DNA from: Gammaproteobacteria bacterium
Lineage (GTDB): Bacteria; Pseudomonadota; Gammaproteobacteria; Steroidobacterales; Woeseiaceae
Assembly (NCBI GenBank): GCA_029862045.1
Contig: JAOTYE010000003.1
Coordinates: 124,001 to 188,000, forward strand
Direction of reading: 5' to 3'
DNA: 64,000 nucleotides
The notes under the pieces were generated by a model that ran no database searches, was not told where the DNA came from, and saw only the letters and a program-made list of their open reading frames with translations. Below are positions 9,279 through 14,273 of this stretch, piece by piece; within the stretch, counting starts at the first letter, position 1; each line of letters starts with the position of its first letter. Made by a program: the position numbers and the translations under genes.

Positions 9279-9527
9279 CTATCGCACGATTTTTTCGAGG
9301 GTTTGGCTCGGCGTATCCGATTGTCTGTAGTAGCCGTGGCGTATTGCCATCTGCTCGAAGGCGCTGTCGCGATCGACTTCGCTCGGATACCAATGCAGCG
9401 TCTCCCAGTCGTCACCGAGAATTTTTCGCAGCGTGTCGCCCGATGGCAGCGTCACCCGAATTCCATAACGCCGCTCGGCGCCGGCGCCGGCTGGATCCAC
9501 GAGATTGTGTAGATGGCAGTAGTCCAT
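9279..9527 (-). CDS. Small conserved protein of unknown function
   Basis: An 82-residue soluble protein without recognisable catalytic motif, rich in aromatic residues (LGDDWETLHWYPSEVDRD, MAIRHGYYRQSD, ending LEKIVR). The pattern of an YGIRV strand followed by DWE-x-HWY resembles a small uncharacterised gammaproteobacterial protein, but I cannot name a family with certainty. It lies directly downstream of the kinase-like gene in the same orientation. The start is uncertain: ATG 9527 fits the conserved-looking N-terminus, while GTG 9566 would overlap the kinase stop by 17 bp. Convergent with the patatin gene. Confidence 0.6.
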   Translation of the reverse strand: MDYCHLHNLVDPAGAGAERRYGIRVTLPSGDTLRKILGDDWETLHWYPSEVDRDSAFEQMAIRHGYYRQSDTPSQTLEKIVR

Positions 9528-9549
9528 GGCGCGGCAGTATACCGAAACT

Positions 9550-10203
9550 TCAGCTGCGGTCACCACGATCGGCGGCGCCCTCGCGGTCTTCCCACCCTAG
9601 CAGCCGCCGTGTGATGAACATGTATATCGGTTTCAAGGTTGACATATAGACGCGTGATGGCAGCGAGGGGTTGTCGAGGATAGCGAGTTCGCGTTGCGTT
9701 AAACGCTGCGGGCAATAGCTCCGCTTGTGTTTGAGCAGATGACGCAAGTCCTCGTAGGCCAGCAAGCGAAACAGGCGGCCCCGTCGCGGTGCGAACCAGG
9801 CGAGCTGAAAGTCAATGAATGCTGGCGAACCATCGTCGCGAACCAGCAAGTTCGGCTCTTTCGCAAGATCGTTGTGCACCATGCCGAGCGCATGCAGTCG
9901 TCGCAGCAGCCTGGCTGCCGCATCGAAATACCCGGGATCGCGCGGTTTGGCGTGGTGCATTGGTGTACCTGGCAGGAAGCTTCGGGTCAGGCGATCGGGT
10001 TCGGTCGCCATGAGATGCGGCACGCCGTCGAGATCACCGAGGGCCGCGAGCACACCTGCCTCGCGACGCAGCAATCGGCGCGCGAGCCAGCGTATCCAGC
10101 CGCTTGCGACGCTTGAATCACGCACGATACGCAGTTCTTCGCCCGCGCCAAGTTGTCGGATTTCGCCGAACAGGTCCTTTTTGAGCAGCTGCGAATCAGC
10201 CAT
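9550..10203 (-). CDS. Lipopolysaccharide kinase (Kdo kinase/InaA)-like protein
   Basis: A 217-residue protein-kinase-fold enzyme. Motifs are the catalytic loop HALGMVHNDLAKEPNLLV (HND in place of HRD) and the metal-binding FIDFQLAWF (DFQ in place of DFG), with FLPGTPMH upstream. These fit the Kdo kinase/RIO-like small-kinase group that phosphorylates lipid A core sugars. The glycine-rich loop is weak (RQLGAGEELRIV). The C-terminus has a basic, hydrophobic stretch (LKPIYMFITRRLLG) that could dock on the membrane. The start is ATG 10203, divergent from the large ATPase gene 36 bp away. The substrate is inferred, not shown. Confidence 0.75.
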   Translation of the reverse strand: MADSQLLKKDLFGEIRQLGAGEELRIVRDSSVASGWIRWLARRLLRREAGVLAALGDLDGVPHLMATEPDRLTRSFLPGTPMHHAKPRDPGYFDAAARLLRRLHALGMVHNDLAKEPNLLVRDDGSPAFIDFQLAWFAPRRGRLFRLLAYEDLRHLLKHKRSYCPQRLTQRELAILDNPSLPSRVYMSTLKPIYMFITRRLLGWEDREGAADRGDRS

Positions 10204-10239: not shown

Positions 10240-13200
10240 ATGATGACCGGGAATTCCGACGAAAAGGCGCCTGGCGCCGAACGCTCCAGGCTCGACACGA
10301 CGGGCGAATTTTTCAGCGTCGGCACCCCGCTGCACGCCGTTCGCGCCGGCTACGTGCGTCGCGCCGCCGATGATGTTCTCTACGAAACACTCGTCGCCGG
10401 TCGCTACGCACACATCATCGCGCCGGATCGCAGCGGCAAATCGAGCCTGGTCGCTGCAACCGCCGCGCGATTGGAAAATAACGGTTTCAAAGTCGCGATT
10501 CTGGACCTCGAGCAGATCGGTGTTCGTGACGCGGGTGGAGATGCCGGTCGCTGGTACTATAGCGTCGCATACAGGCTGTTGCGTCAGTTGCGCATCCGAG
10601 TCGATTTGCAGTCGTGGTGGCAGGACAAATCGATACTAAGTAATCGTCAGCGTCTCGTTGAATTCTATTCAGAGGTCGTTTTGCGCAACGTGCAGGAACG
10701 TGTCGTCGTGTTCGTCGACGAGATTCAATGCATCGGCGATTTGCCGTTCGCTGATCAATTGCTTGCCAGCATCCGCGCTGCACACAATGCGCGAGCCACC
10801 GATCCGGAGTTTTCGCGGTTGTCGTTCGTACTGCTCGGCGAATGCGATCCGCTGAGCCTGCTCGATGAACCAGAGCTGTCGCCGTTCAATATTACGCAAC
10901 CCGTCGCACTGGGCGATTTTTCTCGGGCGGACCTGGACCTTTATACGACTGAGCTGAACATGTCGCCGGACAACGCGACGGCCGCGCTGGATCGCATCTA
11001 CTACTGGACAGGCGGGCAACCCTATCTGTCACAAAAACTCGCCCGTTCGATCTCCCGTGAACAGCCGGCTGGTGATATCTCTGAGAATGTAGATCGCATT
11101 GCGACACTGCAGCTGGCAGGTCGTGCTGCGCTGCACAGCGAACCTCACATGAGTCACATCCACCGCGAGGTGGTCAATGACAAGAAGCGCTGCGAGGCGC
11201 TGCTGAACCTGTATGGCCGAATTCGCAAGGGAATCGAAGTGACCGCAGACTTCGGTTCTCCGATACAACGTCGACTAATCGCGATCGGGCTTATCGTGAT
11301 AGATGAGGAGGGTAATCTCGCAGTTCGGAATCGTCTTTACCGAGCCGTTTTCACCGCGCGCTGGGCGAACGAGAATCTGAAGATCAATTGGCGCACGCCA
11401 GCCATCGCGGCTGTAGTACTGCTGGTTATCATTGCTTTGCCGTTCTGGTATACGCAGCTGCTGCCAAAGACCTATGTCAAGGTGTTGACGTCTGACACAG
11501 TGGCCTTGGAGGTGGCGCAAGAAGCCTTTGTCAATATGCGTTCGTTTCCGGGTCATGTGGCTGCTGCAGACAATCTGTACCGGAGTTTTTTGAAGAATCG
11601 CGCAAAACTGTCGACTGATGTGGCACAAATTTCGGTGATTGCGAATATGGCCTCGGACTTACCTGACGCGGGACGATTGCCGGACGAATTGCGGGCCGGC
11701 TTCTGGGACATGCGGGTTCGTGATGCGAGGCGCGCAGAGCGCCGCGACGACGCATTGTTCGCGTCACTCGAGTCACTGGTCCTTTCGACGCCGCAACGCC
11801 GCAACTCGTCGGCGATGTTGCTTGCCGACGACTATCCATTACTGCTCGCCAGCCTTGCCGACAATGAGCAAACCGAGGTTGTTTTCAATCCTGACAATTT
11901 GTTGTTGACCGCGACGCGCGGTGCAGAAGTGTCGCAATGGTCGTTGCAACCACAAGGACTGCAGCGTCGCGAAGAATGGGTGATAACGGCGCTCGAGGTG
12001 TCGCCGCTCGTACGACGCGTGATCGTGGACCAGCAAGGAACGGCCAGCCGCATTGGTTTGACGCTCAATCTGAGTCACGCGCGCGCTGCCGATTTGCGTA
12101 TTAAGGTTATCGCCCCTTCGGGCAGAGCTGTGGAGGTCTATCCGAACGTGGAGCGCGCGTCGCCGAACGAGGACCTGCGCATACCGGCTACGCAGCTGCG
12201 GGAACTCGTCGGCGAGCCACTCAACGGCACCTGGAGTCTGAGTGTTCGCGATGAGGAACTTGGTGTTGGGGGGCGACTGGTTGGATGGAATCTCAATCTC
12301 AATTCGCAGGGACTGGTCGAAGATTTTCAGCGCGGCCTGAATATTCCCGATCCTGTCGAAACCGGGACGGATAACCTGTGGCTCAGTTCTGACGGCCGTT
12401 TTGCTGTTGCGCGAGCAATGCAGAGTGACAGTGCCAGGGTTTGGGACCTTGCGTTCGCCAAGCCGGTGCGCGCTGTGGCGGTCAATGAGCTTGAGCAGTT
12501 GATCGGCCTGAGTGCCGGTGCGCGCCTGCTCGTTACTGCGACACAGGACACGGTCAATCTGTGGGACACCGCGACAGGTAAACGTGTAGCGATGTTGCCC
12601 GTAGGCGCTGCCAGTACGTCATCGGTGTTAACCACTGACGGAGCACACTTACTCGTGCAGCGTCGCAGCGATAGTGATACGACGTTCGAACTCTGGTCAC
12701 TGGACAGTGCGTCGATTGGCGCGAAACTCGAGATCGCCGGTACACCAGCCCTTGTTTCTGTCGATTCCAGCGGCAGTCGGATCGCGATCGCCGACTATGA
12801 TCGAGCCGTGCGCGTGTGGGATTTTCGCGATGGTTCCCTGCTCGCCCAAATTGATCTTGCGGCACAACCGAGCGAGATAACCCTCGCCGCAAGTGGTCAG
12901 GTCCTCGGCGCGGTTTTCGGCGAAGAAGGCGTATCGTTGTGGCGCATGGATCGACCACCGCAGCCGCTGCTGGAGGAATTTGGCGAGGGTCGATGGCAGC
13001 TCGCATTCTCGCCGTCCGGCAGCAAGGCACTTGTGGGCAGGTCCGGACAGGGATTTCAAGTCTATGACAGCGCGGACGGACGATTGCTTGGTCCGCGCAT
13101 CCGATCAGCCGGCGCTCGAGACAAGACCAGTCTGCTGGCGTTTAGTGCAGATGAGCAAATCATTGTAACCGGTGGCGCAGATAGCGCAGCCCGTTTCTGG

Positions 13201-14055
13201 CGTGCGCCGAAGTTGCCGGCAGAAAGCGATACGAGCAACGATGCGGCGGGCGATTCGATCTGGCCACCATCGGGCGATGCGGTCGCGGTATCAACTCCGG
13301 ATGCAGCGACGATTATCATCGGCGATCAGCGAGGCAACGTACACATGTTGGCCGCCGACCTGAGGCGAGAAGCGCTCGTGGCCAAAAGTCAGGAGGTCAG
13401 TTTCTTTGGGCACAGCGTCGAGGTGCGACGCCTGGAGGTCAGCGCCGACGGCGCATTAGTCGCGAGTGCGGCTGCCGACAATTCGCTGCGGATTTGGAAT
13501 ACGGCCGACGGTTTGCCGAGGCCGTTCATTGGCTCTATCGTGGGTGATCCCATCGACAGGCTCGCGTTCTCGCCCGAGTCCGCACTGCTTGGCGTTCTAA
13601 ACGGCAACAGCGCAGAGGTAATCGACACGACAACGGGCACAACGCTCACGCGCTTCGATCTTGGTGAACGGCACAATGGCATGGCGTTCGCGGACAGAGA
13701 TCACCTGTATTTGGGTAGTGAATCCGGCGCCTTGCGCGTGATCGTGCGAGGATCCGGAGACAGCTGGGATGTGCAGACATTGTGGCAAAGCGATGTAGCC
13801 ATCCGATGGCTTGAGGCGTCGCCGCGCTCACAGTTTCTGGTGCTGGTCGATCAGAACAACCTGGCACAGCAGTTCAGCCTTGCAGAAGGTCGCATTGGTG
13901 AAATGGTGCTGCACCTGCCGAGCGCAGTGGAGGAGGTTACATTCACACCCGGAGGATTGCGTGTTCTGTCCGAACGTCGAACTGGATTCACCGCGCGAGT
14001 TCATCCCGTGCAGGCCTGGTCTGGATTGATGCACTGCTCGCGCCAAAGGCACTGA
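10240..14055 (+). CDS. Transmembrane AAA_35-like ATPase with P/Homo B domain and WD40 propeller
   Basis: Large multidomain protein, 1271 residues in this frame. Residues 1-340 form an AAA-like ATPase resembling the AAA_35 family: Walker A DRSGKSSLV (Lys67) and Walker B VVVFVDEIQ (Asp160/Glu161). One TM helix lies near 388-408 (IAAVVLLVIIALPFWYTQLL), after basic residues, so the rest should be periplasmic. Residues about 583-690 read as a proprotein-convertase P domain (LTLNLSHARAADLRIKVIAP, NGTWSLSVRDEELGVGGRLV). From about 713 on there are WD40-type repeats (NLWDTATGKRVA, VRVWDFRDGSLLAQ, SLRIWNTADGLP). The ATG at 10240 follows a GAG. The frame ends abruptly at 14055, and sequence after 14013 looks coding in another frame. 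Function unknown; STAND-like signalling is my inference. Confidence 0.82.
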   Translation: MMTGNSDEKAPGAERSRLDTTGEFFSVGTPLHAVRAGYVRRAADDVLYETLVAGRYAHIIAPDRSGKSSLVAATAARLENNGFKVAILDLEQIGVRDAGGDAGRWYYSVAYRLLRQLRIRVDLQSWWQDKSILSNRQRLVEFYSEVVLRNVQERVVVFVDEIQCIGDLPFADQLLASIRAAHNARATDPEFSRLSFVLLGECDPLSLLDEPELSPFNITQPVALGDFSRADLDLYTTELNMSPDNATAALDRIYYWTGGQPYLSQKLARSISREQPAGDISENVDRIATLQLAGRAALHSEPHMSHIHREVVNDKKRCEALLNLYGRIRKGIEVTADFGSPIQRRLIAIGLIVIDEEGNLAVRNRLYRAVFTARWANENLKINWRTPAIAAVVLLVIIALPFWYTQLLPKTYVKVLTSDTVALEVAQEAFVNMRSFPGHVAAADNLYRSFLKNRAKLSTDVAQISVIANMASDLPDAGRLPDELRAGFWDMRVRDARRAERRDDALFASLESLVLSTPQRRNSSAMLLADDYPLLLASLADNEQTEVVFNPDNLLLTATRGAEVSQWSLQPQGLQRREEWVITALEVSPLVRRVIVDQQGTASRIGLTLNLSHARAADLRIKVIAPSGRAVEVYPNVERASPNEDLRIPATQLRELVGEPLNGTWSLSVRDEELGVGGRLVGWNLNLNSQGLVEDFQRGLNIPDPVETGTDNLWLSSDGRFAVARAMQSDSARVWDLAFAKPVRAVAVNELEQLIGLSAGARLLVTATQDTVNLWDTATGKRVAMLPVGAASTSSVLTTDGAHLLVQRRSDSDTTFELWSLDSASIGAKLEIAGTPALVSVDSSGSRIAIADYDRAVRVWDFRDGSLLAQIDLAAQPSEITLAASGQVLGAVFGEEGVSLWRMDRPPQPLLEEFGEGRWQLAFSPSGSKALVGRSGQGFQVYDSADGRLLGPRIRSAGARDKTSLLAFSADEQIIVTGGADSAARFWRAPKLPAESDTSNDAAGDSIWPPSGDAVAVSTPDAATIIIGDQRGNVHMLAADLRREALVAKSQEVSFFGHSVEVRRLEVSADGALVASAAADNSLRIWNTADGLPRPFIGSIVGDPIDRLAFSPESALLGVLNGNSAEVIDTTTGTTLTRFDLGERHNGMAFADRDHLYLGSESGALRVIVRGSGDSWDVQTLWQSDVAIRWLEASPRSQFLVLVDQNNLAQQFSLAEGRIGEMVLHLPSAVEEVTFTPGGLRVLSERRTGFTARVHPVQAWSGLMHCSRQRH

Positions 14056-14273
14056 ACAGCGCGCGGATGGTGTTTGGCGATCCCGCCACGGACAATGCCG
14101 CGGCGTTGGGTAATCACGTCTTTCTGCCGGTCGCGGGTGACGGTTTCGCGCAGCTAGAAGAGCTGGGTTTCGCCGTTGTACGCGGCCCGGGTCTGTTTGG
14201 TAACAAGGACCAGTTGCTTGAGGAATGGCGCCGCAAACTCGCCGTTGGCGAGATTGCCCGAGCTGCAGACTAG
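14013..14273 (+). other. Out-of-frame continuation of the WD40 ATPase (probable frameshift)
   Basis: Reading in the -1 frame from about 14013 gives GLVWIDALLAPKALNSARMV and about 65 more residues ending GEIARAAD, stopping at 14273, 4 bp into the end of the convergent gene. The region upstream of the only ATG (14067) already looks coding, and the joined reading VHPVQ-GLVWIDAL is a natural end of a propeller strand. One base missing near 14013 would restore a protein of about 1343 residues. There is no classic slippery heptamer, so an indel or assembly error is more likely than programmed frameshifting. A separate 68-residue gene from ATG 14067 is the alternative. Confidence 0.55.

Follow-up and report, generated by a model that had tools for sequence, protein, structure and literature searches.

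The stretch of DNA analysed here (hereafter the window) comprises 64,000 nucleotides of a Gammaproteobacteria bacterium (Steroidobacterales, Woeseiaceae; contig JAOTYE010000003.1, positions 124,001 to 188,000), and this report concerns the gene that opens at position 10240. Its product combines a STAND ATPase of the AAA_35 type, one transmembrane (TM) helix and a distal half built of WD40 propeller repeats and a P (Homo B) domain. We propose that it acts as a STAND switch that crosses the inner membrane once, sensing the periplasm through an Apaf-1-like double propeller and working through a separate cytoplasmic effector, a reading to which we give an even chance. Work on STAND switches has focused largely on cytoplasmic machines of immunity and cell death; if the proposal is true, STAND activation could be driven from outside the cytoplasm, and a whole environmental bacterial order would possess an unrecognised envelope-to-cytoplasm signalling route. 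The parts of the gene lie in the window as follows.

10240..14055, plus strand: STAND-TM-propeller open reading frame (ORF), 1271 aa, the final 28 residues out of frame
10306..11382, plus strand: STAND/AAA_35 ATPase with nucleotide-binding, helical and winged-helix domains, residues ~23-381 (PF14516, AlphaFold2 model, fold matches)
10420..10443, plus strand: Walker A, residues 61-68 (G66 and K67 in 85/85 sequences)
10702..10722, plus strand: Walker B, residues 155-161 (D160 in 85/85, E161 in 56/85)
11014..11022, plus strand: GxP motif, residues 259-261 (G259 and P261 in 85/85)
11392..11490, plus strand: TM helix, residues 385-417, hydrophobic core 389-407 (AlphaFold2 model, hydropathy)
11506..11853, plus strand: juxtamembrane helical domain, residues 423-538, predicted periplasmic (AlphaFold2 model)
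11875..11967, plus strand: first propeller blade, preceding the P domain, residues ~546-576 (AlphaFold2 models)
12049..12300, plus strand: P (Homo B) domain, residues 604-687 (PF01483)
12310..13218, plus strand: rest of the first beta-propeller, residues ~691-993 (transferred from the model of a relative)
13261..14273, plus strand: second beta-propeller plus tail, starting near residue 1008 and crossing the frameshift (transferred from the model of a relative)
13968..14273, plus strand: C-terminal stretch homologous to the relatives, in another frame (frameshift near 13968 versus the relatives)

Profile matches and structural models

The initial annotation had described an AAA_35-like ATPase, one TM helix, a P domain and WD40 repeats in a single protein. 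Searches with hidden Markov models from Pfam bore out these families: AAA_35 (PF14516) scored 87.5 bits against a cut-off of 27 over residues 38-372, P_proprotein (PF01483) 49.2 bits against 21 over residues 604-687, and WD40 50.7 bits against 27, while additional propeller families stayed under their cut-offs (among the 25 of 31 Pfam families listed). The helix was likewise found, the single TM-like hydrophobic segment (389-407) lying within a helix of residues 385-417 in an AlphaFold2 model of residues 1-567 (mean predicted local distance difference test score, pLDDT, 80.6; predicted template modelling score, pTM, 0.58). Only about 22 residues stand N-terminal to the ATPase.

The structural comparison was made by parts and not on the whole protein at once, the exported half being represented by a 957-residue model of a relative, L004 (pLDDT 78.7, pTM 0.48). 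In this model a helical domain is followed by one blade, by eight strands at the P-domain position, by the remainder of the first propeller and by a second propeller (model residues ~621-926) that matched many WD40 structures at Z 23-26; the P domain was folded and searched only as part of this half. The annotation had placed the P domain before a single propeller. The families stand, with about one blade preceding the P domain in the models, which would make it an insertion after the first blade of a WD40 propeller, and the L004 model suggests two tandem propellers instead of one. The complete Pfam list of full-length L004 (22 of 22 families, E ≤ 0.001) held only AAA_35, the P domain and propeller families.

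Predicted membrane topology

We aligned the window protein with 84 distinct relatives, obtained from 97 full-length translations, to give 85 sequences. Hydropathy was at least 1.6 at the TM position in 82 of them. Over 25 residues, the mean number of Lys plus Arg was 4.48 before the TM segment versus 1.68 after it, with more before in 78 of the 85 sequences and equal numbers in 5. Cys showed a near-total loss after the membrane segment, from 302 among 34,561 residues before it to 9 among 79,534 after it; since the sequences are related, neither the Cys nor the charge counts are independent observations. The nine distal Cys comprise one in the frameshifted tail of the window copy, four that make up pairs in L069 and L091 with a spacing of 36 residues, which could be compatible with a disulphide, and four single residues. 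For calibration, three classes of envelope proteins gave 0.19-0.67% Cys and two cytosolic classes 0.77-1.18% (2 to 10 proteins per class, chosen by motif), so that the 0.011% observed after the TM segment is low even for exported proteins. These sequence biases point strongly to a cytoplasmic ATPase and make it very probable that all parts after the TM helix are periplasmic, in line with the orientation first assigned by the positive-inside rule.

A STAND-type nucleotide-binding core

The resemblance to STAND proteins claimed in the annotation was upheld by fold. Solved structures matched by the ATPase model include the archaeal proteins PABY2304 (2qen; Z 20.4, 3.9 Å, 305 residues aligned) and SSO1545 (2fna; Z 19.4, 4.1 Å, 304), the plant NLR RPP1 (7dfv; Z 17.8, 3.9 Å, 299), CED-4 (2a5y; Z 16.7, 4.5 Å, 305) and the human apoptosome protein Apaf-1 (5juy; Z 15.7, 4.7 Å, 302). 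The aligned ranges start at residues 24-33, end at 372-381 and cover the winged helix, at a sequence identity of 9-15%. When solved structures were searched by sequence, no match was obtained for the ATPase half and none for the P domain.

A GxP motif after the nucleotide-binding domain is a mark of STAND ATPases. The protein carries this motif together with the P-loop, an hhhhD Walker B and the nucleotide-binding, helical and winged-helix fold, and the Walker A Lys67, the Walker B Asp160, Gly259 and Pro261 are invariant in 85 of 85 aligned sequences. The Walker pair first named as Asp160/Glu161 held for the aspartate, whereas Glu161 is Glu in just 56 of the 85 and another residue in 29. Invariant Lys67, Asp160 and GxP residues next to a variable Glu161 would fit a nucleotide-dependent switch better than a motor. 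The variable Glu161 and the lack of a recognised effector could also be accommodated by a static scaffold that binds nucleotide without switching and merely holds a propeller platform at the membrane on its periplasmic side. We consider such a scaffold quite improbable, given the invariance of Lys67, Asp160 and the GxP motif and given that conservation within the protein is highest in the ATPase core (mean top-residue frequency 0.65 versus 0.46 for the propeller).

Occurrence of the gene within and beyond the order

The gene was matched in 95 of 196 genomes of the order (72 of 146 good genomes; 30 of 60 genera), with at most three candidates scored per genome. In 89 of the 95 matching genomes the match was single; among the six with two matches, five held complementary fragments and one, G447, overlapping ranges. 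AAA_35 was found in 45 of 45 and P_proprotein in 44 of 45 diverse relatives (Pfam, E ≤ 0.001). The architecture thus recurs, as the annotation had asked of a homologue survey, and a chance fusion is rejected both by the 95 matching order genomes and by the recurrence of the architecture in the aligned relatives. Relatives with a name belong to Woeseiaceae, a family of Woeseiales, or are labelled merely Gammaproteobacteria or Proteobacteria, which makes Woeseiales the probable order of the survey.

Across the full alignment the P domain is kept in 84 of 85 sequences. The exception, L091 (L091:7137-10790), lay outside the set of 45; its P domain is cleanly gone, as if excised, with the propeller otherwise retained, and L069 of the same genus has the domain. 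L091 is therefore a natural deletion in which the contribution of the P domain can be probed.

Beyond the order, samples of genomes were searched with the first few candidates scored per genome, a depth at which a rare case could escape. In the class sample, matches at E ≤ 1e-30 were found in 3 of 369 genomes, all of the same order. A profile of the ATPase-TM-P region matched 17 of the 369 class genomes, at full length just in these three order members; in the phylum sample it matched 14 of 299 genomes, and the only full-length match was that of the window's own genome. Of 120 plasmid records matched, none covered more than 80% of the query.

The protein could alternatively be an immune sensor, one that recognises phage- or predator-derived molecules in the periplasm and sets off a defence response. 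STAND ATPases and beta-propellers occur in bacterial conflict systems, and for one STAND target the NACHT and lectin domains have been predicted in one paper to lie in the periplasm (PMC7159879, PMC10907252). Against an immune role, the best match to the PADLOC defence models had an E-value of 0.03 (11.8 bits) and no effector was recognised, the chromosomal neighbours are similar across the order and form no island, and one pattern-based scan of viral contigs returned no relative. We therefore regard the immune sensor as very unlikely.

The same genome contains a second, weak AAA_35/nSTAND-like ORF of 826 aa with the reverse layout (L002, G000:C9:8571-8909), in which repeats resembling tetratricopeptide repeats are followed by a TM-like segment and then by the ATPase, the domains other than the ATPase having been named by eye.

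The window copy carries a frameshift

The annotation had read one protein from 10240 to 14273. The frame that opens at 10240 meets a stop at 14055, and no single frame spans the interval. The match of the window protein to most relatives stops near residue 1243, beyond which homology resumes in a different frame up to 14273; the original reading therefore crosses a frameshift. The frameshift near 13968 is either a sequencing error or a real lesion. Complete relatives, whose start codons were picked by script, measure 1318-1401 aa, with the exception of L091 (1217 aa).

Genes upstream of the ATPase gene

Two genes on the opposite strand adjoin the ATPase gene in the window.

9550..10203, minus strand: kinase-like gene, small, divergent, of PRK09188/PRK12274 type, under both curated cut-offs; a neighbour and not a proven partner
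9279..9566, minus strand: small gene, 95 aa, the commonest neighbour in the locus survey and widespread without the ATPase gene

Both had been named as neighbours and both exist. The assignment of the first to Kdo kinases held less well, the family PF06293 scoring 12.1 bits against a cut-off of 21.3; PRK09188 (231 bits against 490) and PRK12274 (204 against 372) also fell short, as did every family with a curated cut-off listed. The product of the small gene had no match in Pfam, NCBIfam or PADLOC at E ≤ 1. In its family, G35, W59 and D84 are invariant in 40 of 40 aligned sequences.

We surveyed 96 of 101 loci, those with at least 1.4 kb upstream, and pooled the counts; the loci are not independent, as some represent the same genome in two collections (L032/L076, L036/L093 and others). 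Within 3 kb upstream and in divergent orientation, the small gene was present at 89 of the 96 loci and the kinase-like gene at 61. The small gene is nonetheless found in 159 of the 196 order genomes, versus 95 with the ATPase gene, and in 38 of the 369 class genomes, of which 34 lie outside the order; conversely, G368 carries the ATPase gene but not the small gene. Where the small gene occurs and the ATPase does not (19 loci), a kinase, patatin, TonB-like or YSC84-like gene lay nearby at 10 of the 11 order loci, and the 8 loci outside the order yielded a single weak match, to the kinase about 4 kb away. The expectation of a fixed partner gene was not borne out: the small gene is rejected as a dedicated partner because it is widespread without the ATPase and because the order's neighbourhood, both neighbours included, persists where the ATPase is absent. 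We ascribe the co-occurrence of the two genes to shared synteny. Locus L160 (L160:4725-6356), which comes from a related genome of 1.8 Mb, lacks the ATPase gene as well as the kinase-like gene, and its small gene adjoins a major facilitator superfamily (MFS) gene.

The neighbourhood also bears on the possibility that the protein is an envelope assembly or remodelling ATPase, which would power or schedule the assembly of some periplasmic structure, with the propellers and P domain as its scaffold. By analogy this would resemble ExeA/GspA, ATPase-TM-periplasmic proteins that serve the type II secretin and carry a periplasmic peptidoglycan-binding domain. The overall order of ATPase, one TM segment and periplasmic domains is the same, and envelope and lipid genes lie nearby, namely patatin-Omp85 and MFS-acyltransferase genes (Pfam) and TonB-receptor-like, MscS-like and YSC84-like genes (labelled by eye, without a family search). 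Such an ATPase nevertheless appears unlikely: the complete Pfam list of L004 (E ≤ 0.001) contains no peptidoglycan-binding family, Glu161 is replaced in 29 of 85 sequences, the best fold matches are STAND ATPases, and a patatin, TonB-like or YSC84-like neighbour is kept at 9 of the 11 order loci that lack the ATPase.

A model for signalling across the envelope

We return to the STAND switch proposed at the outset. The anatomy of the protein comes from sequence or model, and we infer all later steps of the mechanism. The propeller/P-domain part would bind an envelope ligand or a partner protein in the periplasm, and binding would be relayed through the helical domain and the TM helix to the ATPase. 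The STAND ATPase would then swap its ADP for ATP and form clusters within the membrane plane, and the clustered ATPases would recruit a separate cytoplasmic effector encoded elsewhere; a separate effector is proposed because only the short N-terminal stretch noted above precedes the ATPase. In its widest form the proposal is that of a trans-envelope STAND receptor, an Apaf-1-like architecture split by the membrane: the double propeller with its inserted P domain would sense the periplasm, and activation of the STAND module would take place in the cytoplasm. Its gene would be a core gene at one chromosomal neighbourhood in several families of one marine order and not a mobile defence gene, and its effector would be encoded elsewhere. 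We hold this full version to be plausible, if somewhat short of an even chance.

Several points weigh against a STAND receptor of this kind. In known STAND proteins the sensor touches the ATPase directly, a contact that the membrane would prevent. Neither an effector domain nor a dedicated effector gene was found. A further segment with hydropathy of at least 1.6 occurs elsewhere in 15 of the 85 sequences, some of which may have a second membrane contact. The models place the domains relative to one another with low confidence (pTM 0.58 and 0.48). Orc/Cdc6 proteins, which are not STAND sensors, reach scores like those of Apaf-1 (1w5t, Z 16.4; 2qby, Z 15.5), so that the fold alone is no proof of a signalling switch. 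Foldseek ranks other tandem WD40 proteins highest for the exported half, and full-length Apaf-1 (3sfz; rank 23, E 3.2e-21, query TM-score 0.40) is one of many, in a search that was dominated by propellers and barely probed the P domain. Finally, 101 of the 196 order genomes, 74 of the 146 good ones, gave no match to the gene.

Relation to known proteins

Apaf-1 is ordered as a STAND module, a helical domain and two WD40 propellers. Our protein shares with Apaf-1, CED-4 and plant NLRs the ATPase fold, including the winged helix, and full-length Apaf-1 also figures among the Foldseek hits of its exported half. It differs from them in having no recognised CARD, coiled-coil (CC) or TIR effector, in having a TM helix between the winged helix and the helical domain, with a sensor predicted to be non-cytoplasmic, and in carrying a P domain within the first propeller. 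We therefore do not file it as an Apaf-1/NLR-type receptor, which has an N-terminal effector and whose sensor and ATPase share one compartment; here no such effector was recognised, and the two parts are predicted to lie on opposite sides of the membrane.

Cyanobacterial AAA-like-WD40 proteins also join a related ATPase to WD40 repeats. The best plasmid-borne ATPase-WD40 relative, WP_015186274.1 of Allocoleopsis franciscana, is 28.8% identical over 49% of the query. In contrast to the window protein, it has no TM-like segment between ATPase and WD40 repeats (its best 19-residue hydropathy, 1.53, lies inside the ATPase), it has Cys on both sides (4 in 420 residues and 6 in 651), and its listed Pfam families (25 of 64) include no P domain. 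Three nSTAND1-TM-WD40 proteins, L206 (Streptomyces, annotated as trypsin-like), L208 and L212, have the same order of STAND ATPase, one TM segment and WD40 repeats; they belong to another STAND family and show a weak Cys bias, and the Pfam families listed for them (25 of 55-58 for each) do not include the P domain. A TM segment was present in 3 of 4 nSTAND1-type ORFs with at least seven WD motifs, and an additional ATPase-WD40 protein, L205, lacks one.

The P domain itself is shared with proteases of the S8, M36 and M6 families, which are normally secreted. The remark in the initial annotation that P domains normally accompany proteases agrees with what we found in 10 other P-domain ORFs, where a peptidase scored above its cut-off in 8, weakly in one and not at all in one, a piece with cadherin domains (15 of 19 candidate host ORFs were scanned by Pfam; L126, taken in the wrong frame, had no P domain). 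Our protein, in contrast, has no protease, and its P domain sits inside a propeller, which points to a non-protease use for this domain.

The annotation had known of no described system with this architecture. For the architecture as a whole this agrees with our search of the open-access literature, which yielded no description of it, most subscription papers lying outside the search; for the broader arrangement it does not hold, because the STAND-TM-WD40 order already exists in other bacteria. The unusual points are accordingly the P domain and the absent effector, and what is new here is the insertion of the P domain, the missing effector and the inheritance as a core gene.

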